A stretch of DNA of 48,871 nt from a virus, in IMG/VR virus record IMGVR_UViG_3300042462_000377, positions 1 through 48,871 of that record; one strand, written 5' to 3'. Below the pieces are notes generated by a model. The model saw nothing but the letters and a program-made list of their open reading frames with translations. It had not been told where the DNA came from and ran no database searches. Shown here in pieces: positions 24,680 to 37,428 of this stretch. The position numbers were made by a program, and so were the translations under genes. Every line of letters starts with the position of its first letter. Position 1 is the first letter of the stretch.

Positions 24680-26086
24680 ATGTTTGACCTTAGGGGATAC
24701 CAAAACCCGTTAGTGCGCGAAACTATCGCGCACATGAACGAGGGCGGGGCGCCTTGTTTGGTGTCCCCTACTGGCAGCGGCAAAACAGTAATGATGGCCG
24801 AAATCGCACGGCTTTACCGTTCATGGGGTTATCAAGTTGTGCTAGCTGCGCATCGCAATGAGATAATTAAACAGCTTGCCAAGTCATGCCGCAGTCACTG
24901 TAACGAGTCGGTCGGCTTCTACACTGCTAAGCGTGCAACAGAAGACAAAGGCATCATGGTGACGATGATGCCAACACTTGCCAGAAGACGTGATGCAATC
25001 TCCACCTTTCGTGGCAGGGTGTTTCTGCTGGACGAAGCGCATCATATTCAAGCGAAGACATACCAAGAGATCATTCGTGCAATGCAGCCGGTATTCTTTG
25101 CCGGTGCAAGCGCTACGCCGATTACTCCCACTGGTGCCGGCCTTGGCAAGTTTGGTATCACCAAGCTAATCCTTGGCCCACAACCCAAGCAGCTAATGGA
25201 CGAGGGTTCATTGTGCAGATACAAGATGTTTGGTGGTGATACTGCTGTAGTCGATACAGAAGGTGTCACCATAAGAGGCGGAGACTTCAAGAAAGAAGAG
25301 ATTGAAGAGCGCATAGTTAATGTGCAAGGCGATTTCCTGCGCGATCTGCTGCACTTTAATCCAGACTTGCAGCCTACAATTACAGTTACCGTCAGCGTAG
25401 AACACGCACACAAAATAGCCGCTGAGTACAACGCGCAAGGTGTTAGCGCTGAAGTTATTATCGGCACTACTTCAGAGCGTGATAGGGACTGTGCCTTTGA
25501 GCGCTTTACTGCCGGCAAGTTACAGGTAATTGTATCAGTCGCCTTGATTGATGAAGGCTTAGACTTGCCGGCAGCAACGTGCCTGCAACTAATCAGGCCA
25601 ACACGCTCTTTACGTTTGTGGAAACAGTTAATTGGCAGAGTATTGCGCACTGATCCATCTAATCCAGATAAGATAGCGCTGATTATTGACCATGGCAACT
25701 GCTGGGAGCGCTTACCATTGCCCCATGAACCTATCGACTGGACGCTAGAAGGCAAGGTTAAGTTTAAGAAGACTAAGTTTCACCTTAACGAAAACAAACA
25801 AGTAGTTGAAAAACCAGAAAAACAAGAGCGAGTTACGCTAGCCAAAGGTGACAGGAGAGAGTTGAAAGAGTTGTCCATTGAAGAGATATACGCAGAAAGA
25901 ATCAAAAAGCGTGTTAAAGGTGCCAATCGTAATTTGCACCTTGTCGAGCGCAAAGGTTGGAGTCCAGTCATCCTTAACGCATTCGCCAGCTCCCCAGAGG
26001 GGCTTAGCAACGATCAGCGCCGCCGCATCGAGCGTGCCATGGGCTTGCCTTGTGGCCACTGCGGCGAAGCGGAGCTATGTTACTAA
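24680..26086 (+). CDS. SF2 DNA helicase (DEAH-type, RecQ/SSL2-like)
   Basis: 468 aa. Helicase motifs in order: LRGYQNPLV (Q-like), VSPTGSGKTVMMAE (motif I, about residue 30), VVLAAHRNEII (Ia), VFLLDEAHHI (motif II, DEAH, about residue 115), FAGASATPITP (III), VIVSVALIDEGLDLP (V) and LWKQLIGRVLRTDP (VI, with both arginine fingers). The C-terminus ends in CGHCGEAELCY, a possible single zinc knuckle. It unwinds or remodels DNA during replication or recombination. Confidence 0.9.
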   Translation: MFDLRGYQNPLVRETIAHMNEGGAPCLVSPTGSGKTVMMAEIARLYRSWGYQVVLAAHRNEIIKQLAKSCRSHCNESVGFYTAKRATEDKGIMVTMMPTLARRRDAISTFRGRVFLLDEAHHIQAKTYQEIIRAMQPVFFAGASATPITPTGAGLGKFGITKLILGPQPKQLMDEGSLCRYKMFGGDTAVVDTEGVTIRGGDFKKEEIEERIVNVQGDFLRDLLHFNPDLQPTITVTVSVEHAHKIAAEYNAQGVSAEVIIGTTSERDRDCAFERFTAGKLQVIVSVALIDEGLDLPAATCLQLIRPTRSLRLWKQLIGRVLRTDPSNPDKIALIIDHGNCWERLPLPHEPIDWTLEGKVKFKKTKFHLNENKQVVEKPEKQERVTLAKGDRRELKELSIEEIYAERIKKRVKGANRNLHLVERKGWSPVILNAFASSPEGLSNDQRRRIERAMGLPCGHCGEAELCY

Positions 26087-26138
26087 ATGTTAAGAGATCA
26101 ACACGCCGCCCAGCAAGGGTCAGCTAACACGCTATGCT
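26080..26138 (+). promoter_or_regulatory. Accessory promoter module 1
   Basis: TTACTAAATGTTAAG begins in the helicase stop codon. The -10 TATGCT (26133-26138) follows 44 bases after GTTAAG and is preceded by CGC rather than TGC. Downstream comes TTACATTGTTCAACC, shared with modules 2-5. The inverted repeat between the two parts is weak in this copy. Confidence 0.6.
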
Positions 26139-26174
26139 TACATTGTTCAACCAACAACCAATTACGAACCGCTC

Positions 26175-26333
26175 ATGGACCTGCAAACCCTTCACGACAC
26201 TGTTGGAGCTTTAGCCGATTTAGTAGTCATTTTTGAACTTAGCATGATTGCAATTATTTCTCTTCTTTCTGCGGCAGGCATTGCCAAAGTTCAAGTTGAC
26301 TTTGACTTTGACTCTGGCAAGAATCAGGACTGA
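26175..26333 (+). CDS. Small membrane protein
   Basis: 52 aa with one transmembrane helix, LSMIAIISLLSAAGIA (about residues 22-37), and a C-terminal acidic patch VDFDFDSG. The start is 37 bases after a strong -10 and lacks a Shine-Dalgarno sequence. It is the first of several tiny membrane proteins in the next 2 kb. Function unknown. Confidence 0.6.
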   Translation: MDLQTLHDTVGALADLVVIFELSMIAIISLLSAAGIAKVQVDFDFDSGKNQD

Positions 26334-26371
26334 AACCTAATTACACCAACCATCCCTTTACCAACCGCCCC

Positions 26372-27064
26372 ATGTTAACTAGGAATTTCGATCAACTTTC
26401 AAAAGAAGTCAAGCATCATGTCGCGTGTGACGCAGTCCAGCAAGACTGCTACTGGGATGGTTCCCGTGGTTGCTTTATTGGCTGTCTGTCGCATTCTAGT
26501 GACACAGCCAAGGTTCAAGATGAATATGGCCTACCAATTATGTTGCAGCGAATTGCTGAAAGCATCTTTGAGTCACTGCCACTAAAAGAGGCGCAAGCCT
26601 TTTTTGCAGCGTTCCCGACTGCCATTAAGTGCGACAACAAAGACCTGAGCAAGGTTGGATGGCAGTTTTTAGCATCGGAGCTGCGGTCATTACCGCCCCA
26701 GCCAGCCGAGATCACCGCAGTCATTGAACCAGTCGTCGTTGGCATGGATCTTCTGGCGGCGGGGCAAGAATGGCCCGCCGCCGCCGCCGCCGCCGCCTAC
26801 GACGCCGCCCGCGCCGCCGCCGCCCGCGCCGCCTACGCCGCCGCCCGCGCCGCCGCCGCCGCCTACGACGCCGCCCGCGCCGCCTACGCCGCCGACGCCG
26901 CCGCCTACGCCGCCTACGCCGCCGACGCCGCCGCCTACGCCGCCGACGCCTACGCCGCCGACGCCGCCGACGCCTACGCCGCCGACGCCCGCTTGCGTCA
27001 GCGTGATTTGCTTTTGAAACTTATTACAGAAGCGCCAATCGCCCCTTCGCCAATCGCCCCATGA
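26372..27064 (+). CDS. Alanine-repeat protein
   Basis: 230 aa. The N-terminal domain (residues 1-130) has four cysteines (VACDAVQQDC, GCFIGC) and SSDTAKVQDEYGLPIMLQRI. Residues about 135-208 are an Ala-rich helix of repeated AAYAADA, AARAAYAA and AYDAARAA. The repeat uses almost only the codons GCC, TAC, GAC and CGC, unlike the rest of the window. Similar Ala/Tyr/Asp/Arg helices occur in many phage proteins of unknown function. The cysteine-containing N-terminus may be the functional domain, with the helix as spacer. Stop overlaps the next start (ATGA). Confidence 0.75.
   Translation: MLTRNFDQLSKEVKHHVACDAVQQDCYWDGSRGCFIGCLSHSSDTAKVQDEYGLPIMLQRIAESIFESLPLKEAQAFFAAFPTAIKCDNKDLSKVGWQFLASELRSLPPQPAEITAVIEPVVVGMDLLAAGQEWPAAAAAAAYDAARAAAARAAYAAARAAAAAYDAARAAYAADAAAYAAYAADAAAYAADAYAADAADAYAADARLRQRDLLLKLITEAPIAPSPIAP
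26776..26996 (+). repeat. GCC-rich low-complexity coding repeat
   Basis: About 220 bases built from GCC, TAC, GAC and CGC triplets. It would be prone to slippage, so exact length may vary between relatives or be mis-assembled. It keeps the frame of 26372-27064. Confidence 0.85.
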
Positions 27065-27159
27065 TTCCTGTTCTTCAAAACCTGGCTCTCCTGATCGCTC
27101 TTCTCTGCCTGTCAGCTTGTGTTTTTGTTTTTGTCGAGAGTACACTTAACCGACAATGA
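27061..27159 (+). CDS. Tiny single-helix membrane peptide
   Basis: 32 aa: MIPVLQNLALLIALLCLSAC then VFVFVES and a short polar end. It is nearly all one transmembrane helix or a lipoprotein-like signal (LSAC). ATGA overlaps at both ends couple it to its neighbours, which supports real translation. Confidence 0.55.
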   Translation: MIPVLQNLALLIALLCLSACVFVFVESTLNRQ

Positions 27160-27275
27160 CACGCTTTCTCGCCGTTATTCTTGCTATCTTGATAGCGGCG
27201 AGCTTGCTTGGCAGGAGCAACCTGCCGCAACGCTTCACTGAACATTTATCCAATTCTTGTTTTTGCCAAAAATGA
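27156..27275 (+). CDS. Tiny membrane peptide
   Basis: 39 aa. Residues 4-18 (FLAVILAILIAASLL) form a transmembrane helix; the tail is polar with two Cys (SCFC). ATGA overlap with both the preceding and following genes. Function unknown. Confidence 0.55.
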   Translation: MTRFLAVILAILIAASLLGRSNLPQRFTEHLSNSCFCQK

Positions 27276-27607
27276 CAACCTTCAATCCTAACAGCATCAC
27301 CAAGTCGCTAAGCTCTGCCGCACTAGAGACGCTGCTTGCCTCTGCAAAGATACACTGCCGCCAGGAATGGGGCAATGTCAACGATCCGCCATGTCATCCC
27401 GAAGACAATGGCTGGAAAGGCTGTAGAACATGTATCGACGCCCCCGCGACCGCCGCAACCCTACGAGTTGCCGTAGACCAAGCCGACTCATTGATGAAGC
27501 GTTGTGGCTCCCCGCAGCAAGCGGAGGGTCGCTCTGACGTGTTTGATGCCTTCAGGGAAATTGCTACGGAACTGGAAGGCTTGACATCTATTCCCTGCAA
27601 AGCATAA
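27272..27607 (+). CDS. Cysteine-containing hypothetical protein
   Basis: 111 aa from the ATG that overlaps the previous stop. Four cysteines are spaced C-x(13)-C-x(12)-C-x(2)-C (HCRQEWG, PCHPEDN, GCRTCIDA), a possible zinc site, near residues 29-60. The C-terminal half is helical. The stop overlaps the next ATG (TAATG). Confidence 0.6.
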   Translation: MTTFNPNSITKSLSSAALETLLASAKIHCRQEWGNVNDPPCHPEDNGWKGCRTCIDAPATAATLRVAVDQADSLMKRCGSPQQAEGRSDVFDAFREIATELEGLTSIPCKA

Positions 27608-27777
27608 TGATAGAACGATTCAATCTCTGGCTTACCGAGCCAGCAGGCTCAAAGATCCTTTGCTACGGGGATCAATCCGACATGGACGAGCTTGCTGCGT
27701 TTGGCACCAAACTTGGCCTTAACGTCGAAGTTCGGCCTGACAGGCAATTAACCGACTCACCCCAGGAAGACCCATGA
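27607..27777 (+). CDS. Small hypothetical protein
   Basis: 56 aa: FNLWLTEPAGSKILCYGDQ, a beta-helix pattern, then DMDELAAFGTKLGLNVEV. Coupled on both sides (TAATG and ATGA). Not recognised. Confidence 0.5.
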   Translation: MIERFNLWLTEPAGSKILCYGDQSDMDELAAFGTKLGLNVEVRPDRQLTDSPQEDP

Positions 27778-27932
27778 ACAAGCGCAGCATGGTAGCAGCC
27801 GTGTTATTATTGCTTAGCGGTTCTACCGCCGTCCTACATGTTTCCGCCATTTTTTTTCTTTCCGCAATCCTGTTTCTCCTACCATGGAAAAAACTTTTAA
27901 CTTCGACAACATTCCAGATGAGGCAACGCTAA
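27774..27932 (+). CDS. Small two-helix membrane protein
   Basis: 52 aa. Two hydrophobic stretches, VAAVLLLLSGSTAVLHV and SAIFFLSAILFLLPW, then a short basic tail. Starts by ATGA overlap. Its last 49 bases overlap the next gene in another frame, so its 3' end is the less certain part. Holin-like size, but four such tiny genes occur here. Confidence 0.45.
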   Translation: MNKRSMVAAVLLLLSGSTAVLHVSAIFFLSAILFLLPWKKLLTSTTFQMRQR

Positions 27933-28264
27933 CAGAAGCACTTAAGGAGGTGCAGTTTCCTGTTAGCGTCGAGATCCGGCAAGGGGAAAAAATAGAACGC
28001 TCAAAGGAAGCGCTAACGAAAGCGATTCCAGCGCTGCATGCGCCTTACTTTTGTACGGCACAGTTTAATGGCTATCCTGTCCACGAATTTATAGAGGCCA
28101 ATAGCCTCTACGAACTTAACGCTTTACTTGAAAATGGCAAGGCAGATGGTTGGCTTAAGGATATGCCAGTAACGATGATCTGCGAAGAATGGGAAGAGGA
28201 GGATTTAGGCCCAGAGCCTAGCCTGAGCGCAGCAGAGCGTAATCCATCCATGGTAGGCAAGTAA
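27884..28264 (+). CDS. Acidic hypothetical protein
   Basis: 126 aa. It begins with FNFDNIPDEATLTEALKEV, includes FCTAQFNGYPVHEFIEANS and ends in an acidic tail (ICEEWEEEDLGPE). Directly followed by the next ATG after the stop. Unknown function. Confidence 0.6.
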   Translation: MEKTFNFDNIPDEATLTEALKEVQFPVSVEIRQGEKIERSKEALTKAIPALHAPYFCTAQFNGYPVHEFIEANSLYELNALLENGKADGWLKDMPVTMICEEWEEEDLGPEPSLSAAERNPSMVGK

Positions 28265-28597
28265 ATGGATTATACTGAACTAATTAAAGCGATTAAGGCC
28301 GGCGAATGCCCAAAGTTACTGCCAAATTCATCGCTTATGCTTAGCTACAAGTCGGAACCTGTTGAAGTCCGGGAAGGCTCAATGACTACAGGTGACGGTA
28401 GTTTTGAGTTATACCGCTTTGGAGTCGGCAGTTACTTTGTCATGTCCAGTGACTTTTTTGTTTGTACTGCACTTGAGGGGGTAAAGTCGGGAGAATTTCT
28501 TATTAAGTTTATTAAAGTTTGCTCAACGCTTAAGCTCATTCTGGAGCTTGTGAGGCGCTTAGAGCACTCGATGAAGCGAGAGCAGCAGGCATGGTAA
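28265..28597 (+). CDS. Hypothetical protein
   Basis: 110 aa, abutting the previous stop. A helix (YTELIKAIKAGECPKLLPN) is followed by a beta-rich region and a C-terminal helix LILELVRRLEHSMKREQQ. Overlaps the HNH-like gene by seven bases. Unknown. Confidence 0.6.
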   Translation: MDYTELIKAIKAGECPKLLPNSSLMLSYKSEPVEVREGSMTTGDGSFELYRFGVGSYFVMSSDFFVCTALEGVKSGEFLIKFIKVCSTLKLILELVRRLEHSMKREQQAW

Positions 28598-29091
28598 ACA
28601 AGATGACAGCGCTACCACCAATCGCGCTACTTCAGTTTCTGTTTCACTACAATCAAGTGGATGGGACTATAACCTACCTCCAGCAGCGTGGTCCCAAAAA
28701 GCCTGGCGACCTGGCCGACAGCACACGCAATGGCCTGCCAATTGTCTACATTCACGGCAAAGAGTACAAGGCCGCTGACGTGGCCTGGGCGCTTCATCGT
28801 GGCAAGTGGCCATACGGCTTCTATGTTGTTTGCCGCGACAAGAATCCATGCAACCTGGCCTGGGATAACCTACTGGCAACACATGTCAAGCCGATCTACC
28901 GCAATCCCCTGGGCCGGCGAGCAAAGCGGCCTGGCTGGTTCAAGAAAGACCTGAAGCGCAATCCAGTGACCGGCGAATGGACGGCCCGGTATGACGGCGC
29001 CCTGTTGCCAGGCACCTTCCTGACGCAGGCAGAGGCGGCAGCGGCAAGACGGCTGGCGGCGAAGGAGGAGGATTCATGTTCCCATTGCTAG
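28591..29091 (+). CDS. Degenerate HNH/AP2-type protein
   Basis: 166 aa. It follows the phage HNH layout: FLFHYNQVDGTITYLQQRG, YIHGKEYKAADVAWALHRGK, WPYGFYVVCRDKNPCNLAWD and NLLATHVKPIY. In active relatives the pieces read aHRvaWaL.hG.wP and iDHinG...DN..NLR. Here the first His is Asp (AADVAW) and the DH pair is VC (VVCRDKNP), so the metal site looks destroyed. The C-terminal part (NPVTGEWTARYDG, LTQAEAAAARRLAAKE) resembles an AP2 DNA-binding domain. The gene is more GC-rich than its neighbours, which suggests an inserted homing-type element that lost cutting activity. Confidence 0.7.
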   Translation: MVNKMTALPPIALLQFLFHYNQVDGTITYLQQRGPKKPGDLADSTRNGLPIVYIHGKEYKAADVAWALHRGKWPYGFYVVCRDKNPCNLAWDNLLATHVKPIYRNPLGRRAKRPGWFKKDLKRNPVTGEWTARYDGALLPGTFLTQAEAAAARRLAAKEEDSCSHC

Positions 29092-29405
29092 AGCCAGCCA
29101 GGGATTTTTCCTATTGGTGGAGAGAGGATGATTGGCCATTCGCTCCCCAAGTTACAGATTTGATGGTACTATCAGAGGTAGGAGGCGGCTATCATTGTTG
29201 GGGTGTTTATGGTGGTAGGATTTATGTTGACTACGAGCCCTTGAGGGCGGAGTTGATGAAATTCTTTGACCAGGACAATCCGAACTGGCCAGAGTTAGCC
29301 GACGTTCACAAACTAGCGATAGATATTTCTGTAATAAAAATACCTACTTACCGTGTTAGCGTGTGGCAAAATCGCCTATCTGTTCACGATTTGGGCTGGT
29401 CCTAG
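29076..29405 (+). CDS. Tryptophan-rich hypothetical protein
   Basis: 109 aa, overlapping the HNH-like gene by 16 bases. Rich in Trp and Tyr (FSYWWREDDWPF, GGGYHCWGVYGGRIYVDYE). Mixed alpha/beta. No recognised family. Confidence 0.55.
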   Translation: MFPLLEPARDFSYWWREDDWPFAPQVTDLMVLSEVGGGYHCWGVYGGRIYVDYEPLRAELMKFFDQDNPNWPELADVHKLAIDISVIKIPTYRVSVWQNRLSVHDLGWS

Positions 29406-29681
29406 ATGGCTAACCTAATTGCGCATGACATTAAGATCAGAGACTTAAGACTTAAGCGCTTAACATTCAAAAGGGTTAGGATCAATCAGGTATTCTACTA
29501 CAGCTATCGCTGGTATCAGAAAATATCGAAATACATGGCGATAACAGCAGACACTATCGAGAATGACAGGATACGGTTTAAGGAAGCTGCCATGGTACGG
29601 GTCATGGATGAAGGCGCAGCATCTGCAAGGACCGCTGGTGGTATGTCATTTGAAGAGTTCCTTCAGAATGCCGCTTTGTGA
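29406..29681 (+). CDS. Basic hypothetical protein
   Basis: 91 aa, starting directly after the previous stop. The N-terminal half is strongly basic (IKIRDLRLKRLTFKRVRINQ), compatible with nucleic acid binding; the second half is helical. Its stop codon begins promoter module 2. Confidence 0.55.
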   Translation: MANLIAHDIKIRDLRLKRLTFKRVRINQVFYYSYRWYQKISKYMAITADTIENDRIRFKEAAMVRVMDEGAASARTAGGMSFEEFLQNAAL

Positions 29682-29739
29682 CAAACTGTTAAGCATCCAA
29701 CACTGACCTTGGCATGTTGGCCCATTTTCATGCTATGAT
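29680..29739 (+). promoter_or_regulatory. Accessory promoter module 2
   Basis: GACAAACTGTTAAGC overlaps the preceding stop. An inverted repeat CCAAC...GTTGG and the extended -10 TGCTATGAT (hexamer 29734-29739) follow. GTTAAG to -10 is 46 bases. TTGGCA lies 19 bases upstream of the hexamer as a weak -35. The leader TTACTTTGTCCAAAC is shared with module 4. Confidence 0.7.
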
Positions 29740-29764
29740 TACTTTGTCCAAACAAAACAAGTCG

Positions 29765-30178
29765 ATGACGCTTTATCTGCTCAACACCACCGTTGTCCCT
29801 TGCGGGAGTGACGGCATCTGGGATGTTAAGACACTTCCTCTTGCGTCGGCCAAAAGTCTTTTCGCTCGCACATCCCCGGCAACCGTTTACACGTCTGCCG
29901 TAGGACATGAATCAACAGCTTGTATCATGGCCGAACTGCTAGGGGTTCAAGTCCCCGTGAACAGAATACAGGTGGCGCCTGTTTTGGGTGATAAGCTGCT
30001 TTGCTTTAAGCTAAAGCAAAGAGCGCCAGAAGGGGTGATCCTGTCAGCGCCAGAGATTGAAGCGTTGGGTTATGAATGGGTTTTAATGACCTACCATGGC
30101 AGCATCGGTGCTGCACTGGACGCCAAGCTGTTATCCCAGGACAACTTTGTGAATGCAGTTTACAATCGGGTATATTGA
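29765..30178 (+). CDS. acrIII-1: DUF1874 family ring nuclease, predicted type III anti-CRISPR (AcrIII-1)
   Basis: 137 aa from the ATG 25 bases after the -10. The family pattern is clear: LYLLNTTVVPCGSDGIWDV, YTSAVGHESTA, ELLGVQVPVNRIQV, FKLKQRAPEG and EIEALGYEWVLM. AcrIII-1 (SIRV1 gp29) degrades the cyclic tetra-adenylate signal of type III CRISPR and needs His47, Arg85 and Glu88; here H48, R86 and E89 occupy the matching motifs (GHxST, QRxxEG). The family core is about 110 aa; this protein has about 30 further residues (HGSIGAALDAKLLSQDN), origin unknown. It has its own promoter and is followed by a small gene one base downstream. Family assignment is strong; anti-CRISPR activity in this host is inferred. 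Confidence 0.88.
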   Translation: MTLYLLNTTVVPCGSDGIWDVKTLPLASAKSLFARTSPATVYTSAVGHESTACIMAELLGVQVPVNRIQVAPVLGDKLLCFKLKQRAPEGVILSAPEIEALGYEWVLMTYHGSIGAALDAKLLSQDNFVNAVYNRVY

Positions 30179-30179
30179 T

Positions 30180-30431
30180 ATGTTTACTATTTTTGTGCAA
30201 CAGAATGACCAGTGGGTCGAGTTTCTACCGCTGGCTAGAGAACTTGGGCACGTTAGCCAGAAAGAGGCTGACTGCATTAAGGATTACAGCCTGGAAGAGG
30301 TAGCCAAAGTAATTAGCTATTTTGGGAATGAAGTTCAGATATTACCACCTTGCAGCTTTTGGAAGGTGGTCGGGCCAGCCGGCCATACGCTGCCAGGTTT
30401 TATCCATTCGACCTATGAAGCGGCAGCCTAG
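30180..30431 (+). CDS. Hypothetical protein co-transcribed with AcrIII-1
   Basis: 83 aa. The ATG is one base after the AcrIII-1 stop, so they are almost certainly translated together. Sequence features: FTIFVQQNDQWVEFLPLAR, YSLEEVAKVISYFGNE, SFWKVVGPAGHTLPGF. No family recognised. The tight pairing with an anti-CRISPR gene makes it a candidate counter-defence partner. Confidence 0.6.
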   Translation: MFTIFVQQNDQWVEFLPLARELGHVSQKEADCIKDYSLEEVAKVISYFGNEVQILPPCSFWKVVGPAGHTLPGFIHSTYEAAA

Positions 30432-30439
30432 CCGCCACC

Positions 30440-30499
30440 TTACAAACTGTTAAGCATCCAACACTGACCTTGGCACGTTGGCGCTTAGATGCTGTATAG
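30440..30499 (+). promoter_or_regulatory. Accessory promoter module 3
   Basis: TTACAAACTGTTAAGC, then an inverted repeat CCAAC...GTTGG nearly identical to module 2, then the -10 TATAGT (30494-30499). GTTAAG to -10 is 45 bases. Leader TTACATTGTTCAAAC. Confidence 0.7.
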
Positions 30500-30527
30500 T
30501 TACATTGTTCAAACAACCCAAGCCGCC

Positions 30528-31214
30528 ATGACAAGCGCCATTCTTCCAGTCGCAATGTTGCACGCAGCAGCACAGTTTACCTCGCCAGATCCTGTTAAGC
30601 AAGTGCTAACTGGCATCCTAGTCAGGCCGGCAGATGATGGGGGAGTTATCATTAGCTCCAGCGATGGACACAGAGCCTTTCGTGTTACATGCCCAAATCC
30701 TAAATGGGTATGCCAGCAAGCATTACTGCTATCAGGTAAAGCGTTCAAGAAGCGCATACCATACGCCAGAATCGCTGAGTTTGAGACGCCATTTAGCAAC
30801 GCTGCTATCCATGGCGGCAAAAAGCTGACAGAATATATGCAATCATTGCCGGCAATGTGGCAATGTGAATACGTAGCTGCGGCAGATACCTATACAAGCG
30901 TAAATCCCGCTACGCTTTATCCAGACTCGGATCGGATATGGCCCAGTCAATATGGAAGAGAGACTGATACGCCTATTGGGTTTAATGCTGCTTACCTGGC
31001 TGATTTCTTAACAATAGTTAAGCTGTACTCACATACTGATCTTGTGGTTAGCGAGCGCAACAGATACAATACGCCAATGATCTTTAGCGCTAAAGTAGAT
31101 ATGCCAGAACTATCAGTGACCATGGAATACTTGTTGATGCCAGTAGAGGATCAAGCTAATAGGGCGCCATATGGCAGCCGTGGCATGGTGGTGACAGCGG
31201 AGAGCGAGGAGTAA
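30528..31214 (+). CDS. Two-domain sliding-clamp-like protein (DnaN domains 2-3)
   Basis: 228 aa from the ATG 28 bases after the -10; an upstream ATG overlaps the promoter. It resembles bacterial beta clamps lacking domain 1: VLTGILVRPADDGGVIISS and SDGHRAFRV match the domain 2 pattern (vLnGvl...l...TDGHRLA). GFNAAYLADFLTIVKL, TPMIFSAK and VTMEYLLMPV match the end of domain 3 (YL...l......P......yl.MP). Bacterial clamps are about 370 aa dimers of three-domain chains; a 228-aa two-domain chain would need to form a trimer, as T4 gp45 does, or act as a decoy. No phage polymerase is present. Confidence 0.68.
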   Translation: MTSAILPVAMLHAAAQFTSPDPVKQVLTGILVRPADDGGVIISSSDGHRAFRVTCPNPKWVCQQALLLSGKAFKKRIPYARIAEFETPFSNAAIHGGKKLTEYMQSLPAMWQCEYVAAADTYTSVNPATLYPDSDRIWPSQYGRETDTPIGFNAAYLADFLTIVKLYSHTDLVVSERNRYNTPMIFSAKVDMPELSVTMEYLLMPVEDQANRAPYGSRGMVVTAESEE

Positions 31215-31219
31215 CACCT

Positions 31220-31279
31220 TACAAACTGTTAAGCACTTTCAGCCGGACCTAGCAAGTCCGGCTTTTTTCATGCTATGAT
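31220..31279 (+). promoter_or_regulatory. Accessory promoter module 4
   Basis: TTACAAACTGTTAAGC, an embedded terminator (31242-31269), then extended -10 TGCTATGAT (hexamer 31274-31279). GTTAAG to -10 is 45 bases. Confidence 0.72.
31242..31269 (+). terminator. Intrinsic terminator inside module 4
   Basis: Perfect 8-bp stem AGCCGGAC / GTCCGGCT followed by six T. It ends the clamp-like transcript four bases before the -10 of the next gene. Confidence 0.88.
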
Positions 31280-31320
31280 TACTTTGTCCAAACGACACCG
31301 GCAACAAGCCGAACCCCTAC

Positions 31321-31767
31321 ATGGAACCAACCGCTTCGATCATTGATCTGGAATCAGTCGCACCAAAAGACCGCAGAATTGCCTTTGCCCGCCATGCTGC
31401 GAAGCGTATTCAGGCACGAGAGCTTGGCACGGTAGTCGAACGAATTGTCGCAGATTCTGAGCTGCGGCCAGCCGATGGCGAATCAGATGAAGATTTTATG
31501 AAGCGTCTTTACACTGACGGCGTTTTGAAGTGCTACTCTCCACTGAAAGATACGCCATTCACGCTATTTTATCTGTACAATAAGCCGTTAATCGGCTTTT
31601 TGCCGCCAGATATTGGCGGCAAAAAGATAGCCGACGACACAGGCGCAATGACTATAACCATTAACGTGGTTCAGACTGAGCTGATGCCACAATGGGGCGA
31701 TTCGGATGGCGTGGAAAAGCTCATTATTTCGTTCATGCTTTTTAAGTTGCTAGAAGGCAAAGTCTGA
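31321..31767 (+). CDS. Hypothetical accessory protein
   Basis: 148 aa. Helical N-terminus with basic segments (RRIAFARHAAKRIQARELGT), then ESDEDFMKRLYTDGVLKCYS, and a beta-rich end (AMTITINVVQTELMPQWGD). It has its own terminator-promoter module on each side. The leader has no Shine-Dalgarno sequence. No family recognised. Confidence 0.6.
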   Translation: MEPTASIIDLESVAPKDRRIAFARHAAKRIQARELGTVVERIVADSELRPADGESDEDFMKRLYTDGVLKCYSPLKDTPFTLFYLYNKPLIGFLPPDIGGKKIADDTGAMTITINVVQTELMPQWGDSDGVEKLIISFMLFKLLEGKV

Positions 31768-31773
31768 GCCACC

Positions 31774-31834
31774 TTACAAACTGTTAAGCGTTAAGAGGCG
31801 AGCCTAGCAAGCTCGCTTTTTTATGTGCTATGCT
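31774..31834 (+). promoter_or_regulatory. Accessory promoter module 5
   Basis: TTACAAACTGTTAAGC, embedded terminator (31798-31822), then TGCTATGCT (hexamer 31829-31834). GTTAAG to -10 is 46 bases. The leader TTCAAACGAAAC follows. Confidence 0.72.
31798..31822 (+). terminator. Intrinsic terminator inside module 5
   Basis: Stem GCGAGC / GCTCGC with a seven-base loop and six T. It has the loop CTAGCAA, also found in the module 4 terminator, although the stems differ. Confidence 0.85.
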
Positions 31835-31862
31835 TAATGTGTTCAAACGAAACAGGCCCACC

Positions 31863-32078
31863 ATGCAAACCCCATCGGCATACGATCAAACTGGCTATCT
31901 TGCCGGCAACCAGCATAGTTATGGAGCGTTGCACAGGCAATCTATCGAGTTAGTGGAGCAAATGGCGAGAGTTAGTGGAGCCAAGGATGAGCTGATGGCG
32001 ATGGCTAAAATTTGTTCGAGCCTTGCGCGTAAGGCTGAAGATGCGCGGCTAAAAGATTTAGGTTGCTTTGAAGAGTGA
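31863..32078 (+). CDS. Small helical accessory protein
   Basis: 71 aa from the ATG 28 bases after the -10; an upstream ATG lies in the -10 itself. YDQTGYLAGNQHSYGALHRQ precedes a helix RQSIELVEQMARVSGAKDEL. Unknown function. Confidence 0.55.
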   Translation: MQTPSAYDQTGYLAGNQHSYGALHRQSIELVEQMARVSGAKDELMAMAKICSSLARKAEDARLKDLGCFEE

Positions 32079-32129
32079 CGCTTTAACCTCTAACCCACCA
32101 TTCTGCCGGCAAACAAGCCGGATCATCCA

Positions 32130-32357
32130 ATGACACTTTATGAAGAGCTGGTCGCCGCTGGCTGTTTGATCGACCATCACAAATCGACTTTGTACGTTAG
32201 GTGCAGTGAAAAAGCTGAAACTATTATCCTCTATCACGTTTTATTGCCTGACAGCGTATTGCAGATGCCTAAACAGTTCCGGTCAGATATTGACAAAAAG
32301 TTATGGTATGACATTCCGTTTGGTTATGATCCATTCTGGAGTAAGCCGGCAAAGTAA
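32130..32357 (+). CDS. Hypothetical accessory protein
   Basis: 75 aa. It starts MTLYEELVAAGCLIDHHKST and ends in an aromatic segment (KLWYDIPFGYDPFWSKPAK). The leader CGGCAAACAAGCCGGATC can form a small hairpin. No promoter module of the array type; probably read through from 31.83 kb. Confidence 0.55.
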   Translation: MTLYEELVAAGCLIDHHKSTLYVRCSEKAETIILYHVLLPDSVLQMPKQFRSDIDKKLWYDIPFGYDPFWSKPAK

Positions 32358-32392
32358 ACAGTCTTTTCAATTCCACCATCCCCAACTCCCCA

Positions 32393-32647
32393 ATGAACCT
32401 TAACAAAGAAAACGCCGCGCTATTTCAGTCAAGCCTTGAAAAGGCTTACGAGCATTTGTTCGCAAACAATGCGGAATACAGCTACTCAGCAGCCGTAACA
32501 ACTCCCGCCAAGCTAGCAGAAAAAATGACCATCGGACTCGCAAGAAATGAAGCCAACAAAGATGGGGACGGCATTAAAATGACGTGCAAAGCTCTTAAAA
32601 TACCTTACACTTACAAGGGTATTTTGGCTTACTTAAATCATGGATAA
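32393..32647 (+). CDS. Hypothetical accessory protein
   Basis: 84 aa. EKAYEHLFANNAEYSYSAAV and ARNEANKDGDGIKMTCKALK, ending in a short helix. Last gene before the 520-base non-coding region; a terminator follows at 32673. Unknown. Confidence 0.6.
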   Translation: MNLNKENAALFQSSLEKAYEHLFANNAEYSYSAAVTTPAKLAEKMTIGLARNEANKDGDGIKMTCKALKIPYTYKGILAYLNHG

Positions 32648-32672
32648 ATAACCGGCAAGGTAAATCATGGGG

Positions 32673-32698
32673 GCTGGGGCTTTCGGGTCCCAGCTTTC
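32673..32698 (+). terminator. Probable intrinsic terminator
   Basis: Stem GCTGGG / CCCAGC with a ten-base loop, followed by TTTCTC. The T run is short and interrupted, so efficiency is uncertain. Confidence 0.6.
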
Positions 32699-32771
32699 TC
32701 ATTGGATTCTCAACCTGGACAGATCAGGCTGGCTTATGGTCATTTTGGGGGCCTGCATCGAGTAGTGATCT

Positions 32772-32810
32772 ATTCAAAAGCCTTGCGGCGCAACGATTTA
32801 TAAGGAAAAA
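32772..32810 (+). repeat. 39-bp direct repeat, copy 1
   Basis: Matches 32847-32885 at 37 of 39 bases. The core CCTTGCGGCGCAA occurs a third time at 33751-33763, right after the terminase-like gene. Each of the two full copies is followed shortly by GGAGATAAA. Confidence 0.85.
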
Positions 32811-32846
32811 GGTGCCGAGGAGATAAACCTGCATTTTTAGTAACAC

Positions 32847-32885
32847 ATTCAAAAGCCTTGCGGCGCAACGATCTGTAAGGAAAAA
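32847..32885 (+). repeat. 39-bp direct repeat, copy 2
   Basis: Second copy, starting 75 bases after the first. The core TTGCGGCGCAA has 4-bp inverted ends (TTGC/GCAA), as expected for a protein-binding site. Confidence 0.85.
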
Positions 32886-32942
32886 CGAAAAGGAGATAAA
32901 TTGCCTAATAGAAAAGGTGGGGGAAACGTGTATCAGGGTGAT

Positions 32943-32972
32943 ACAGTCTCACTATGAGTCTCATGAGACTGT
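32943..32972. repeat. Nested inverted repeats of GTCTCA / TGAGAC
   Basis: AGTCTCATGAGACT (32957-32970) is a perfect 14-bp palindrome. ACAGTCTCA (32943-32951) and TGAGACTGT (32964-32972) form a second, 9-bp inverted repeat around it. The same hexamer is iterated at the 3' end of the terminase-like gene. Confidence 0.8.
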
Positions 32973-33170
32973 AGAAAAAGTGAAAAAAAGTATTTTCTTC
33001 TATTCTCTCTATCTCTGCCAGCTCCCATCAGGCTTTTGGACCTGTTACTGAAAATGCAGGCGATTATCCGCCATAAGTCAAGCCTATAAGACCATTTTCT
33101 TCCTGCCGGCAAGATAAAAGCATGGAAGTATGTTGCGTTGTAGTATCCTGTAATCACGAATAAGAGCAAC

Positions 33171-33746
33171 ATGGATTCATCGCTTTCTCGCATTAACCCA
33201 ACTCCCATTCACTGCCGGCCAGATAGCGAAAGATTATTGCGCACGCATAACGCCTGGCAGGCATCTTGGGACCAAAGCAGCGAGAACGAAGAAGCGCCAG
33301 ATTTAGAAGCATTAACAAGAGAGGCGTTTGGCTATTATGCTGCTGGATTGTTGCCGGTTCAAGTTAGGTGGAAGCTAGGCGAGCTGCATTCACACCTCTC
33401 GAACGCCACCCTCACCCGCATTCAGCGCCGCGCCGAGCGTGCCCTGCTGGCCGCTGAGAGCGCCCCGCCAGAGCTGCGCCGCGCCATGGTGGCCGCAGCC
33501 CGCCAGACGGCCATTCAAGGGGCCATTTCGGACCATGCCTGGGGCGCAGCTCTGGCGGGCTTAGCGCGTGCTGGCGAGATCGCTAGGGAGATGCGGGAGA
33601 GCGCTGGCCTGAGCGAGGAGGATCTGGTGTTGACCGTCTCGGTCGAGCAGCCTGTACTCCCTGCCGGTGAGTCTCAGCCAGTCTCAGATGAGACAGCGGC
33701 CAATCTCAACGATGAGACGGTTGAGATTGAGACTGAGACTTGTTGA
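33171..33746 (+). CDS. Probable terminase small subunit
   Basis: 191 aa. Residues about 45-70 (LTREAFGYYAAGLLPVQVRW) look like a helix-turn-helix entry. A long helical region follows (LTRIQRRAERALLAAESAPP; AAARQTAIQGAISDHAWGAA), and then a Glu/Thr-rich acidic tail. This is the layout of small terminases: DNA-binding N-terminus, helical oligomerisation core, acidic end. Codons in the middle are much more GC-rich than at either end. The 3' end and the downstream region carry a cluster of GTCTCA/TGAGAC sites. The large terminase is 5 kb away on the other strand, so the call rests on layout and the site cluster. Confidence 0.5.
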   Translation: MDSSLSRINPTPIHCRPDSERLLRTHNAWQASWDQSSENEEAPDLEALTREAFGYYAAGLLPVQVRWKLGELHSHLSNATLTRIQRRAERALLAAESAPPELRRAMVAAARQTAIQGAISDHAWGAALAGLARAGEIAREMRESAGLSEEDLVLTVSVEQPVLPAGESQPVSDETAANLNDETVEIETETC

Positions 33747-33780
33747 GAACCCTTGCGGCGCAATGAATCTCATCTGAGAC
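33671..33780. repeat. Cluster of seven GTCTCA/TGAGAC hexamers, candidate packaging site
   Basis: Exact hexamers begin at 33671, 33681, 33689, 33713, 33728, 33734 and 33775, with further near-matches. By chance about one would be expected every 2 kb counting both orientations. In P22 and SPP1-type phages the pac site lies in or beside the small terminase gene. The cluster also spells an acidic tail, so coding repeat is the alternative explanation. Confidence 0.5.
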
Positions 33781-33795
33781 AGGCATTCATGCAAC

Positions 33796-33842
33796 TAAAT
33801 GTTAAGCATTCATAGGCGCTGGCCCTGTTAGGGTGCTACTGT
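33796..33842 (+). promoter_or_regulatory. Accessory promoter module 6
   Basis: TAAATGTTAAGC, small inverted repeat CCCT/AGGG, then extended -10 TGCTACTGT (hexamer 33837-33842). GTTAAG to -10 is 36 bases. The leader ATGGGAGCCATTCA is shared with module 7. Confidence 0.6.
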
Positions 33843-33870
33843 ATGGGAGCCATTCACAAAAAAGGCATTC

Positions 33871-34104
33871 ATGGGCGCATCCTTTCCTAACATTGACATA
33901 AGTTGTCGGACAGGCGAATATGTAGGGTATTCAGCCGGCAACGATGGAATATGGCTTATCAAAAGAGCTAACCCTATAGGCTCAAAGTATAGATGGCTTG
34001 TGCAAAAAAGAAATAATAAGGATTGTTTCTACGCAAGGACCCTAGGAGAGATAAGCGAAAAATTGTCAAGCCTTAGCGATGCTGCCACTGTTGCAAACTG
34101 TTAA
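33871..34104 (+). CDS. Small accessory protein
   Basis: 77 aa. GYSAGNDGIWLIKRANPIGS, then a basic segment YRWLVQKRNNKD, and a C-terminal helix. The start is 28 bases after the -10, in the leader word GGCATTC-ATG. Its stop codon lies inside the next promoter word. Unknown. Confidence 0.55.
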   Translation: MGASFPNIDISCRTGEYVGYSAGNDGIWLIKRANPIGSKYRWLVQKRNNKDCFYARTLGEISEKLSSLSDAATVANC

Positions 34105-34141
34105 GCGTCCAGCCACTGGCGTGTCATTCATGCGCTATTGT
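34091..34141 (+). promoter_or_regulatory. Accessory promoter module 7
   Basis: TTGCAAACTGTTAAGC overlaps the stop of the previous gene. Inverted repeat CCAG/CTGG, -10 TATTGT (34136-34141), 36 bases after GTTAAG. Leader ATGGGAGCCATTCATTC matches module 6. Confidence 0.65.
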
Positions 34142-34174
34142 ATGGGAGCCATTCATTCATTCGAGAGGCATTCA

Positions 34175-34390
34175 ATGATTAGCCCTATTTACTCTCCCGA
34201 TTTAATGACAGAGTTAGTTCCTGTCAATCTTTCAATTTGGGAGCTTAATGTTATCTACGATCTTTTAAGAAAAGAGGCTAACAAAGTGCAGAAAGAAGGT
34301 AATTATTGCGCCGGGTCCTACAACGATAGCGTAGTACGGTTAGATAAAAAGATTGTCGCCATTAGACAAAGTGTTCGCCAGCACTCTTAA
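34175..34390 (+). CDS. Small accessory protein
   Basis: 71 aa from the ATG after GGCATTCA; an upstream start would cross the promoter. YSPDLMTELVPVNLSIWELN is followed by a basic helix VIYDLLRKEANKVQKEGNY and the end RLDKKIVAIRQSVRQ. Unknown. Confidence 0.55.
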   Translation: MISPIYSPDLMTELVPVNLSIWELNVIYDLLRKEANKVQKEGNYCAGSYNDSVVRLDKKIVAIRQSVRQHS

Positions 34391-34392
34391 CC

Positions 34393-34443
34393 TTGCTAAT
34401 TGTTAAGCGTCCAGCCACACCACGCTGACAACCATGCTACTAT
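34393..34443 (+). promoter_or_regulatory. Accessory promoter module 8
   Basis: TTGCTAATTGTTAAGC, short inverted repeat AGCGT/ACGCT, extended -10 TGCTACTAT (hexamer 34438-34443). GTTAAG to -10 is 36 bases. Confidence 0.62.
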
Positions 34444-34470
34444 TAACAAGCAAACACGCACCGCCCCACC

Positions 34471-34845
34471 ATGGCCACGACAACAGCAACAAAAACCGCC
34501 CCATTCACCGCCGCAGAATGGGCAAGCCTTAAAAGACTAGCTAAAATTATTCACAAATGGAATGAAGATGAATGTAATGGCGCTATTCAATGGCACGGTG
34601 ACAATGAAGAAACTCCTAAGCGTTATTTTCAAGATCGCTACGGCTGCTTTACTATCCCTGGCCCTACGATTCAGGATAAAGAGAAGCAAAGCGTAGAGTC
34701 TGCTCGCAAGATTGCCGCCAGGCATGGTTTGTCTATCTACCACCAAACCGACCCTAGGGGTATCGCGCTATATGTCTACAATCCTGCGCTCAACGAAGGT
34801 AGAATCGATGAACTTTATTCTAGCATCGGCAAACCTGTCTGCTAA
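34471..34845 (+). CDS. Conserved phage protein of unknown function
   Basis: 124 aa. The pattern LAKIIHKWNEDECNGAIQW near residue 25 and SIYHQTDPRGIALYVYNP near residue 95 resembles a family of small unknown proteins seen in many tailed phages (LHRW.E.ECNG.IQR ... YhQtDPRG..LYv). No catalytic role is known to me. The leader lacks a Shine-Dalgarno sequence. Confidence 0.7.
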   Translation: MATTTATKTAPFTAAEWASLKRLAKIIHKWNEDECNGAIQWHGDNEETPKRYFQDRYGCFTIPGPTIQDKEKQSVESARKIAARHGLSIYHQTDPRGIALYVYNPALNEGRIDELYSSIGKPVC

Positions 34846-34873
34846 ATTCATTCATTCATTCATTCATTCATTC
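34846..34873 (+). repeat. Tetranucleotide repeat (ATTC)7 in a 5' leader
   Basis: Seven perfect ATTC units start after the previous stop and end five bases before the next ATG. Shorter ATTCATTC runs occur in the leaders of 33871 and 34175. Slippage could change leader length and expression. Confidence 0.9.
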
Positions 34874-34878
34874 AAACC

Positions 34879-35103
34879 ATGCAAACTCAAAGTGTTTCCC
34901 CTGCTAATTTCCGGGTTAATCTTGAGGCTAACAAGGATAAGCGTAAGGCAGAGATTTATGATGCGGCCATGTTGCTGCTAAGGGCGGATCGTGATTTGGC
35001 ATTGATAACCATTAGTCTTGCCACTATCACCGACTTGTCTGAATTGTGCCGCAAAATAGAATTAGGTGAGAAAATATCAGGATCGCCTTTGCTTGACTTC
35101 TAG
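34879..35103 (+). CDS. Small helical accessory protein
   Basis: 74 aa. FRVNLEANKDKRKAEIYDAA, then LLRADRDLALITISLATITD. Unlike most of its neighbours it has no separate promoter module; the gap upstream is filled by the ATTC repeat. Probably co-transcribed with 34471-34845. Confidence 0.55.
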   Translation: MQTQSVSPANFRVNLEANKDKRKAEIYDAAMLLLRADRDLALITISLATITDLSELCRKIELGEKISGSPLLDF

Positions 35104-35105
35104 CC

Positions 35106-35161
35106 TTACAAACTGTTAAGCGTCCACCGTCCTGCCATGCTAAGGCATGGCAGGATATGCA
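35106..35161 (+). promoter_or_regulatory. Accessory promoter module 9
   Basis: TTACAAACTGTTAAGC, a perfect 10-bp hairpin (CCTGCCATGC / GCATGGCAGG, loop TAAG, 35131-35154), then -10 TATGCA (35156-35161), 41 bases after GTTAAG. The whole block recurs as module 10. Confidence 0.65.
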
Positions 35162-35188
35162 AGTACCAAAGCAAACAAGGTCATCTCA

Positions 35189-35548
35189 ATGAGTCTCCCA
35201 AGCATCAAAACGTTAAATTCTGCTTTTCCCGGCCTGGGGAAGGACCTTAGGCGCGCTTTAGAATTGAGCAGAAAAGAATTAAAAGAGCATCCAGCGTCCA
35301 AACACTTGTCTGCTTTATTTCACCCGGCAAAAACGTCTCAAATCAGACTAACGGTTTTGGATGCAATCGCTGAGACTTGTGGCGTAGAATACGTTGCGCA
35401 TAAAGATGATACTATTTTTGAAAACAAAGGTTTTGACTATCTGAACGTAGGTGATCCTTACGTTCCTACGATCATACGATTCTGCGAGACTGGTCGCTAT
35501 GTTGTCGCTTGCTATGGTGACATAGTAGAAAAGGGAAACTATATTTAA
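35189..35548 (+). CDS. Conserved phage protein of unknown function
   Basis: 119 aa from the ATG at 35189. An in-frame ATG at 35147 would add MAGYASTKANKV, which is promoter hairpin and leader sequence repeated upstream of 35647, so it is rejected. The N-terminal half is helical (FPGLGKDLRRALELSRKELK); the end, FDYLNVGDPYVPTIIRF and YVVACYGDIVE, matches a widespread small-protein pattern (YLn.GDpY..T......R..V...GD.vE) of unknown function. Confidence 0.68.
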   Translation: MSLPSIKTLNSAFPGLGKDLRRALELSRKELKEHPASKHLSALFHPAKTSQIRLTVLDAIAETCGVEYVAHKDDTIFENKGFDYLNVGDPYVPTIIRFCETGRYVVACYGDIVEKGNYI

Positions 35549-35569
35549 CCTCTGGCCACCGTGCCAACC

Positions 35570-35625
35570 TTACAAATTGTTAAGCGTCCACCGTCCTGCC
35601 ATGCTAAGACATGGTAGGATATGCA
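35570..35625 (+). promoter_or_regulatory. Accessory promoter module 10
   Basis: TTACAAATTGTTAAGC, a hairpin with compensating G-U pairs relative to module 9, then TATGCA (35620-35625), again 41 bases after GTTAAG. The leader CACCAAAGCAAACAAGGTCA is nearly identical to that of module 9. Confidence 0.65.
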
Positions 35626-35646
35626 AGCACCAAAGCAAACAAGGTC

Positions 35647-35913
35647 ATGACTGAACAGCGTTGCAGCTATCTTGGCGAAGTATTCCCAGACTTTATAGCG
35701 GAACTTCGCCCTTTTAAGGGGCATCCTTATGCGGGTCGCTCCCAGGACGGATACGGTCGTAAGATACCTACCGACTATGCTATTAGATTAGGTGCAAGGT
35801 GGCACCGTGTCTATGTTTGTTGTTTTGGTAACGCTGGCACCGCCTACATTATCACTAAGGATCATCCTTTCTTAGTGGTTCTTGACGGCGATCTTATTAG
35901 CGTTAGAGGTTAA
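35647..35913 (+). CDS. Conserved phage protein of unknown function
   Basis: 88 aa from the ATG at 35647 (the 35611 ATG lies in the hairpin). GYGRKIPTDYAIRLGARWHR and VYVCCFGNAGTAYIIT match a small family common in tailed phages (GYGrKIPT.Y......RW.RVYv..ysN.GTaYI). Function unknown. AAGG precedes the start by a few bases. Confidence 0.68.
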   Translation: MTEQRCSYLGEVFPDFIAELRPFKGHPYAGRSQDGYGRKIPTDYAIRLGARWHRVYVCCFGNAGTAYIITKDHPFLVVLDGDLISVRG

Positions 35914-35948
35914 ATCTTAACTCCCATCATCCCATCGCAACTATCACA

Positions 35949-36248
35949 ATGTCACAAACACCAAGGCTGCCGACAGTTGTTGAGCCCACCTTAATTCTTG
36001 ACGGATCATGGGGAATTTATATTCCGCAGATGTTCGGTACTAGATACCTTACTGAGGCAGACTGCAAGCGTTGTAATATAGATATAGGGTATGCAAGGGC
36101 ATTGGGAGATACAGGGTCTGACCTTTACTGGGAAGCATGGGAAAGTGTGTTAGATAATTACAGTACAGAATTAGGCGAGACGTTGTATCAGGATCAAGAT
36201 GTTTGGCTTGTTCCCGCTGGCTTCAAGTGGCCAGACGATGGCATGTAA
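35949..36248 (+). CDS. Hypothetical accessory protein
   Basis: 99 aa, acidic. LILDGSWGIYIPQMFGTRYL and DIGYARALGDTGSDLYWEAW. Not recognised. It lacks a promoter module and is probably read with 35647-35913. Confidence 0.55.
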   Translation: MSQTPRLPTVVEPTLILDGSWGIYIPQMFGTRYLTEADCKRCNIDIGYARALGDTGSDLYWEAWESVLDNYSTELGETLYQDQDVWLVPAGFKWPDDGM

Positions 36249-36275
36249 TTAGCATCTTGCGCCTAGCAAGCCACA

Positions 36276-36325
36276 TTACTAACTGTTACGGGTCAGACTG
36301 CGAGCGTAGCATCTGACCCTAGAAT
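36276..36325 (+). promoter_or_regulatory. Accessory promoter module 11
   Basis: ATTACTAACTGTTACGGG, the most diverged copy. An 8-bp hairpin GGGTCAGA / TCTGACCC (36290-36319) follows, then -10 TAGAAT (36320-36325), 35 bases after GTTACG. Confidence 0.55.
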
Positions 36326-36352
36326 AGACAGGCAAACAACGCAACCCAACCC

Positions 36353-36628
36353 ATGGCAATCAGCACAATGACAAACGGCCAACTAGCTACCCTTGCTAGT
36401 GGCGCTCTTCGTACTATTAGGCGCGTGATCGAAGAAGACAGAAGGCACGGTCCACAAGCCTATATGGTCCCCGCTTATGGTCACGCTTGGAACGTGCTAG
36501 ATATGCTACATGCCATGACTGAGGCTGATCTCTTAAAATGTGATCAGTTAGATGATCACATTTATATCTTGCGCGGGATCGCCTATGATCTGCGCGACGG
36601 TTCGCCTACCTTTGGCTATCACGACTAG
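36353..36628 (+). CDS. Hypothetical accessory protein
   Basis: 91 aa. LATLASGALRTIRRVIEEDR, a basic helix, then YGHAWNVLDMLHAMTEADLL and YILRGIAYDLRDG. Last gene of the array. Leader AACCCAACCC has no Shine-Dalgarno sequence. Confidence 0.6.
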   Translation: MAISTMTNGQLATLASGALRTIRRVIEEDRRHGPQAYMVPAYGHAWNVLDMLHAMTEADLLKCDQLDDHIYILRGIAYDLRDGSPTFGYHD

Positions 36629-37417: not shown

Positions 37418-37419
37418 CA

Positions 37420-37428
37420 ATCATAGCA
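37420..37428 (-). promoter_or_regulatory. Extended -10 close to the peptidase start
   Basis: Minus strand TGCTATGAT (hexamer 37425-37420), two bases before the ATG at 37417. Either transcription starts after that ATG, or the gene is read mainly from the upstream gene. Confidence 0.5.

Follow-up and report, generated by a model that had tools for sequence, protein, structure and literature searches.

Composite promoter–terminator cassettes with a helically phased upstream box in the gene array of a probable cyanophage

Introduction

Which signals express the genes of a viral array whose promoters have no -35 box, and how do genes enter and leave such an array? These questions are raised by one virus record, 48,871 bases long (IMGVR_UViG_3300042462_000377), analysed at its full length and hereafter called the window, in which a 16-bp word recurs at gene ends, upstream of -10 boxes. 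The original prediction, made from the sequence alone, had described eleven such intergenic modules and had proposed that the word is bound by an activator, perhaps phage-encoded, that compensates for the missing -35 boxes. Here, we report that the modules are very probably composite promoter–terminator cassettes with an upstream activator box, and we weigh host and phage-encoded candidates for the protein that would bind it.

Results

A 16-bp word recurs in the window and in related viruses

With up to 3 mismatches, the word occurs ten times on the plus strand of the window and not at all on the minus strand, as compared with a mean of 0.41 and a largest count of 2 in 100 shuffles; an eleventh copy (word 6 in Table 1) carries 4 mismatches. 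All eleven repeated words of the original prediction are recovered, their starts lying within 4 bases of the earlier list. The accompanying statement that the word is found nowhere else in the window holds for the minus strand at up to 3 mismatches, but word-like 16-mers do occur inside coding sequence, one of them at 31008 (+) with 4 mismatches. A partial word-like sequence (CCTACAAACTGTTACCAT; 37515–37532, minus strand) upstream of a C39-like gene is coding (YKLLP) when read by eye and was seen again in L004, L045, L075 and L084.

A scan of IMG/VR recovered the exact word in 46 stretches, of which 26 are AT-rich (GC 0.30–0.40), consist mostly of one recurring sequence and hold no modules; these contigs were ruled out as relatives, the word sitting there in unrelated sequence. 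One or more modules with an in-register -10 box are present in 18 of the 20 stretches with GC >0.45 (L008 and L013 are without a module; L018 and L040 are one contig), and a portal-protein fetch of 63 loci yielded many further modules. Identical copies of modules 9, 10 and 11 are present in L007, and a near-DNA search of the array among phages gave no match. Across 103 distinct sites, selected at up to 3 mismatches and thereby in favour of conservation, the right half, TGTTA(A/C)GC, hardly varies and the left half does. An equal frequency of the word in unrelated phages, the outcome named beforehand as speaking against co-regulation, did not occur.

Table 1. Positions of words, -10 boxes, a terminator and genes discussed in the text (offset: from the G of GTTA to the first base of the -10 box)
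Feature	Positions	Strand	Remark
Word 1, TTACTAAATGTTAAGA	26080–26095	+	overlaps helicase stop; offset 44
Word 2, TGACAAACTGTTAAGC	29679–29694	+	offset 46
Word 3, consensus copy	30440–30455	+	offset 46
Word 4, consensus copy	31219–31234	+	offset 46
Word 5, consensus copy	31774–31789	+	offset 46
Word 6, CAACTAAATGTTAAGC	33792–33807	+	offset 36
Word 7, TTGCAAACTGTTAAGC	34091–34106	+	offset 36
Word 8, TTGCTAATTGTTAAGC	34393–34408	+	offset 36
Word 9, consensus copy	35106–35121	+	offset 36 to CAGGAT, not 41
Word 10, TTACAAATTGTTAAGC	35570–35585	+	offset 36 to TAGGAT, not 41
Word 11, TTACTAACTGTTACGG	36276–36291	+	offset 35
-10 box, module 1, TATGCT	26133–26138	+	
-10 box, module 2, TATGAT	29734–29739	+	TGC-extended
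-10 box, module 3, TATAGT	30495–30500	+	
-10 box, module 4, TATGAT	31274–31279	+	TGC-extended
-10 box, module 5, TATGCT	31829–31834	+	TGC-extended
-10 box, module 6, TACTGT	33837–33842	+	TGC-extended
-10 box, module 7, TATTGT	34136–34141	+	
-10 box, module 8, TACTAT	34438–34443	+	TGC-extended
-10 box, module 9, CAGGAT	35151–35156	+	preceded by TGG; TAGGAT in relatives
-10 box, module 10, TAGGAT	35615–35620	+	preceded by TGG
-10 box, module 11, TAGAAT	36320–36325	+	
Intrinsic terminator hairpin, then T run	31241–31263	+	between word 4 and its -10 box
Helicase gene	24680–26086	+	
Cassette gene, STIV B116-like protein	29765–30178	+	Pfam PF08960, E 6e-25
Cassette gene	30528–31214	+	matches RusA-like family and, weakly, DNA polymerase processivity factor
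Cassette gene	31321–31767	+	
Gene of conserved 191-aa all-helical protein	33171–33746	+	upstream of word 6
NrdR-like zinc-ribbon protein, candidate activator	38731–38991	+	related to NrdR ribbon

The word lies at two distances from the -10 box, one helical turn apart

The offsets in the window are 44, 46, 46, 46, 46, 36, 36, 36, 36, 36 and 35 for modules 1 to 11, which amends the distances given earlier and removes both values of 41. That third class had relied on TATGCA boxes, for which TAGGAT (35570) and CAGGAT (35106), 5 bp upstream, are the better reading; at this place relatives nearly always carry TGGTAGGAT, and because TAGGAT and CAGGAT are taken as the -10 boxes, the 41-bp class is gone. 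The half-turn between classes that had been proposed is absent: the short and long classes differ by 10 bp, a full helical turn.

Over 123 distinct sites, selected at up to 4 mismatches plus a fixed core and including coding strays such as those at window 24917, L033 4139 and L087 14663, the best -10 box lies at offset 35–37 in 75 cases and at 43–48 in 44 cases, with 4 further sites having it elsewhere. At none of these 123 module-like sites is it at offset 38–42, and shuffled spacers, used as the control, give a flat distribution. With the -10 box taken as -12 to -7, the word occupies -58 to -41 in the short class and -68 to -51 in the long class. As had been stated earlier, -35 boxes are missing: no module -10 box is among the 24 promoter-like sites of the window that have both hexamers. 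The predicted upstream activator site in place of a -35 box is supported by this absence and by spacing fixed in two helical-phase classes over the 123 sites. As to the leaders, an ATTC tandem repeat (34850–34876) lies in that of the gene at 34879, and shorter CATTCA repeats lie in those of modules 6 and 7.

Long-class modules often carry a terminator

TTTT is found in 22 of 39 long-class spacers versus none of 73 short-class spacers, totals which differ from those of the spacing count because the two counts use different -10 rules. In the long class, TTTT is typically preceded by a hairpin whose stem differs widely between modules. The inverted repeat of unrelated sequence described in the original prediction is therefore confirmed and, in the long class, is often an intrinsic terminator, such that this class often consists of the box, the terminator of the previous gene and the -10 box.

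Since the word adjoins stop codons and stands upstream of terminators in these 22 long-class modules, it might instead act in RNA, in antitermination or at mRNA 3' ends, or serve as a seed for homologous exchange, a reading in keeping with the recombination of modules described below. Against this, both the word and its 36-bp distance are retained in the 73 short-class modules, which have no TTTT, and the 10-bp step between classes is expected of a protein bound to DNA and not of an RNA signal. We regard a role in RNA or as a recombination seed as quite improbable.

Genes of the array turn over while the modules persist

In the seven near-complete genomes, the first word invariably lies at the end of the helicase gene or at most about 45 bp beyond it, and of 51 words with an in-register -10 box, 47 are located in the stretch from helicase to terL, all on one strand per genome; the remaining four carry 5 mismatches. 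This count applies a strict -10 rule, which window words 33792 and 35106 fail. We compared the genes of the window with six relatives, each represented by two or three contig stretches. Most of the genes at 29765–36628 have no match or are matched in few relatives; helicase, terL, portal and others are matched in all six. The 191-aa protein is likewise present in 6/6 and adjoins a downstream word in many relatives. Its model is weak (pLDDT 65.6; best fold-search E 0.3), and a weak fold match at rank 31 allows no more than a guess that it may be the small terminase.

For the STIV B116-like gene, the window, L025 and L033 share the -10 box and leader, but each has a different upstream half made up of box and spacer. 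The family of this gene is named after an archaeal virus, and here it is part of a likely cyanophage cassette. Judged from these sequences, recombination inside the modules would be the simplest reading of both the gene turnover and the swapped halves. The earlier idea of self-contained exchangeable units is thus retained in that modules are kept where the genes between them change, and is corrected in that the exchange points appear to lie inside the module, whereby the word would travel with the end of the upstream gene.

The host is probably a picocyanobacterium

The portal protein of the window has S-2L (36% identity) and then other cyanosiphophages as nearest relatives; the nearest capsid is from an unannotated marine virus, with S-2L second (33.5%), and the terminase finds its nearest relatives in Vibrio and Pseudomonas phages. 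In a DNA comparison with 151 Cyanobium-family genomes, the matches listed include a C39-peptidase gene and a dCTP-deaminase gene, which point to a picocyanobacterium as the probable host; the virus probably infects freshwater cyanobacteria. The other matches listed are alanine-rich repeats and one 29-bp simple-repeat match, and none of those listed is CRISPR-like. The C39-like gene (36851–37420, minus strand) is about 65–67% identical in DNA to picocyanobacterial genomes and is absent from the six relatives compared. A gene at 26372–27064 encodes a long Ala/Tyr/Asp/Arg repeat (GCC-rich in DNA), which has DNA matches in many host-family genomes. A tRNA scan of the window found no genes.

The word resembles HLR1 sites of the host regulator RpaB

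Which protein, then, may bind the word? The accessible parts of two reports describe HLR1, the site of RpaB, as two KTTACAWW half-sites 2 bp apart (PMC13421787, PMC9241938), which activates at about -45 to -66 (PMC13421787), and an HLR1-like element at -45 to -60 (PMC9241938). The box positions determined here agree with the published activating range, their ends overshooting it by 2–4 bp. In picocyanobacteria, hli promoters carry HLR1 sites, for example TTTACAACCTGTTACAAT, whose core TTACAA-N-CTGTTA is common to the phage word.

The HLR1 matrix was built on 28 distinct sites in Cyanobium-family hli promoters, taken from 65 hli open reading frames at up to 4 mismatches from the published consensus, a selection which leans on that consensus. 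In the forward register, the words have a median rank of 30 among 97,708 window positions, with 7/11 in the top 50, where none of 40 column-permuted matrices placed any word. Scoring both strands with 3 bp of slack gives a median rank of 18 of 97,708, equalled by a fraction of 0.002 of 1000 permuted matrices; for a single consensus copy, the permutation fraction is 0.005. In S-2L, the matrix scores two positions highest, at 18.8 and 18.3 (next 12.0). Both are intergenic words, each at offset 44 from a TGC-extended -10 box (TTTAAT/TTTACT), and 2% of permutations reach the maximum score; this result is not fully independent, because the words were first noticed as repeats resembling the phage word. 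The case for HLR1 rests on the words jointly ranking high and on S-2L. An OmpR-type DNA-binding domain was detected in none of 12 phage records. Overall, we consider it possible, while on balance to be doubted, that this cyanophage family drives its exchangeable accessory-gene array by host RpaB, with no phage-encoded regulator needed.

S-2L has seven repeated intergenic modules of its own (L117:2485–6592, minus strand), with a hairpin and a TGC-extended TTTAAT-like -10 box; an HLR1-like word is present in two of the seven only. A single HLR1 match in MED4-184 scores 15.2, a value attained in 10% of permutations. All of 20 host psaA promoters contain ATTGAACCTTTGT(A/T)ACT, or a form of it differing by one base, which begins about 47 bp before the -10 box, nearly at the short-class box position; the HLR1 matrix locates no consistent site upstream of psaA. 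A match of the L200 type was rejected as an activator site, as the host hli sites overlap the -10 box, a repressing position.

Several observations weigh against RpaB. The strict forward register leaves copies at ranks 571 and 1437, one copy ranks 765 even when both strands are scored with 3 bp of slack, and the single best HLR1 score of the window is equalled in 40% of permutations. Moreover, the copies share descent and therefore do not represent 11 independent sites. In the consensus copy, the half-sites match KTTACAWW by eye at 7/8 and 4/8 positions, the second, GTTAAGC, departing from it. The S-2L words match HLR1 on the strand opposite its genes, and no clear HLR1 signal was seen in the records of KBS-S-2A, S-H1, S-LBS1 (without its last 641 bases), S-CBS2 and S-CBS4 (both partial). 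In the Cyanobium family, the word shows no enrichment at up to one mismatch: it has 19 matches, spread over 18/151 genomes, and a reversed-pattern control is commoner. The exact word is found in none of eight named host genomes; these two scans rule it out, in its exact form, as a host regulon motif. The likeness of the psaA element to the reversed word is weak, at least 1/30 permuted matrices equalling it. Finally, the host itself is inferred from sequence matches, and a phage zinc ribbon accompanies the modules in 17/19 IMG/VR records.

This zinc ribbon forms the basis of a different explanation, in which a phage-encoded activator, most plausibly the NrdR-like protein acting in an Ogr-like manner, would bind the word and co-activate a middle regulon. 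The word is phage-specific in that host-family genomes are not enriched for it, and the ribbon is matched in 17 of 22 records, namely 17/19 module-bearing IMG/VR records (one of the matches, in G003, being a 28-residue piece with a stop) and 0/3 of S-2L, KBS-S-2A and S-H1. The ribbon is kin to the DNA-binding ribbon of NrdR (E 1e-6 in one comparison, the top match in another), and its RRRRC core is invariant in the alignment, which holds 12 of the 17 and leaves out the G003 piece and four near-duplicates. A precedent, according to the available part of the source, is the zinc-finger activation of late promoters by P2 Ogr (PMC3931495). Pfam searches of the array and the early open reading frames scanned found the ribbon as sole regulator; a gene earlier named cyAbrB-like (32393–32647) has no Pfam match even at E 5. 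On the other hand, G171 and G172, both fragments, carry words with a -10 box at offset 36 and no detected ribbon, which is also missing directly before terL, its site in the window and G007. The words stay identical while the ribbon drops to 31–40% overall identity, Pfam matches the NrdR ribbon with no Ogr/Delta match, and reading three window modules by eye (30440, 31219 and 35106) showed no TGT-N12-ACA, no scan having been run. We hold binding by a phage-encoded activator to be possible, if doubtful, and place it second to RpaB. The earlier suggestion of a phage-encoded binder is left undecided: the ribbon stays a candidate, but HLR1/RpaB sites of the host are similar to the word.

Neither the fixed helical phasing nor the absence of an OmpR domain from the phage records singles out RpaB, and the word might be bound by a different regulator of the host (RpaA, PhoB/SphR or an unnamed factor), the more so as host PhoBR control of cyanophage genes is described in the accessible part of a published study (PMC10976474). 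In opposition to this, the HLR1 matrix fits the words better than permuted matrices do, and the Pho box unit PyTTAAPyPyT/A is matched by one arm of the reverse word only (CTTAACAG; 6/8 by eye, no matrix built). We consider such a regulator unlikely.

Discussion

The architecture of the modules, their spacing and conservation, and the turnover of the genes they serve are direct results of the computation; from these we infer activation, RpaB binding and light dependence. In the model that we put forward, each module would comprise an upstream activator box (the word), a spacer, a -10 box without a -35 box and a short leader, the long-class spacer often carrying the intrinsic terminator of the preceding gene. 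An activator bound on one helix face at about -58 to -41 or -68 to -51 would recruit the host RNA polymerase. The most likely binder would be RpaB, a response regulator of the host that belongs to the OmpR family, at an HLR1-like site of two TTA-type half-sites with a 10-bp period. The accessory genes would then be expressed together, tied to the light and redox state of the host, and homologous recombination within the repeated modules may shuffle them. Taken as a whole and with RpaB as first-choice binder, this mechanism is tentative and somewhat short of an even call.

These results place shuffling promoter–terminator cassettes outside the T4-type phages and add an activator box with a helical phasing from which a testable prediction follows. 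Were RpaB the binder, one box would couple cyanophage accessory genes to host light and redox state, and any gene recombined into a cassette would join a light-coupled viral regulon; if it were the zinc ribbon, the activator family would lie outside Ogr/Delta. Literature searches on cyanophage RpaB, phage HLR1 and cyanophage response-regulator promoters gave, judged by their listings, no report of such phage promoters.

Among known systems, P2 Ogr/Delta likewise involves a phage zinc-finger activator at promoters, for which the ribbon of the window is a candidate, whereas the zinc finger (CX2CX22CX4C versus CX4CX23CX2C in the ribbon) and the family differ. Ogr/Delta sites centre near -55, at promoters without -35 boxes. 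The Pseudomonas phage YuA carries repeats annotated as 'putative sigma70 promoter requiring phage-encoded cofactor' (record AM749441), a likeness at the level of annotation; these repeats are 28 bp long. In the PhoBR case, as far as described in the accessible text (PMC10976474), phage genes are under the control of a two-component response regulator of the host, the role proposed here for RpaB, but the binding motif is another and few scattered cyanophage genes are concerned rather than a cassette array. With HLR1/RpaB, the modules appear to share TTACA-type half-sites of 10-bp period upstream of the promoter at about -45 to -66, and differ in the second half-site GTTAAGC, in the exact word not being enriched in hosts and in the setting of a phage array.

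The promoter early stem-loops (PeSLs) of T4-type phages were reportedly described by Arbiol 2010 and Comeau 2014. PeSLs are promoter and stem-loop composites that mediate gene shuffling, according to the part of the source available (PMC4503421). The modules resemble them as repeated intergenic promoters combined with a stem-loop or terminator, the hairpin and T run being found in 22/39 long-class spacers only, and in gene shuffling, the same gene standing behind different module halves and the array genes not being conserved. In contrast to PeSLs, the modules have no -35 box and carry a constant upstream 16-bp box at a helically phased distance, in a phage that has an S-2L-like portal and capsid and is not T4-type. 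The kind of system is already known, both as PeSL-like cassettes and as host regulators driving cyanophage genes; what is new is their combination and the helically phased box.

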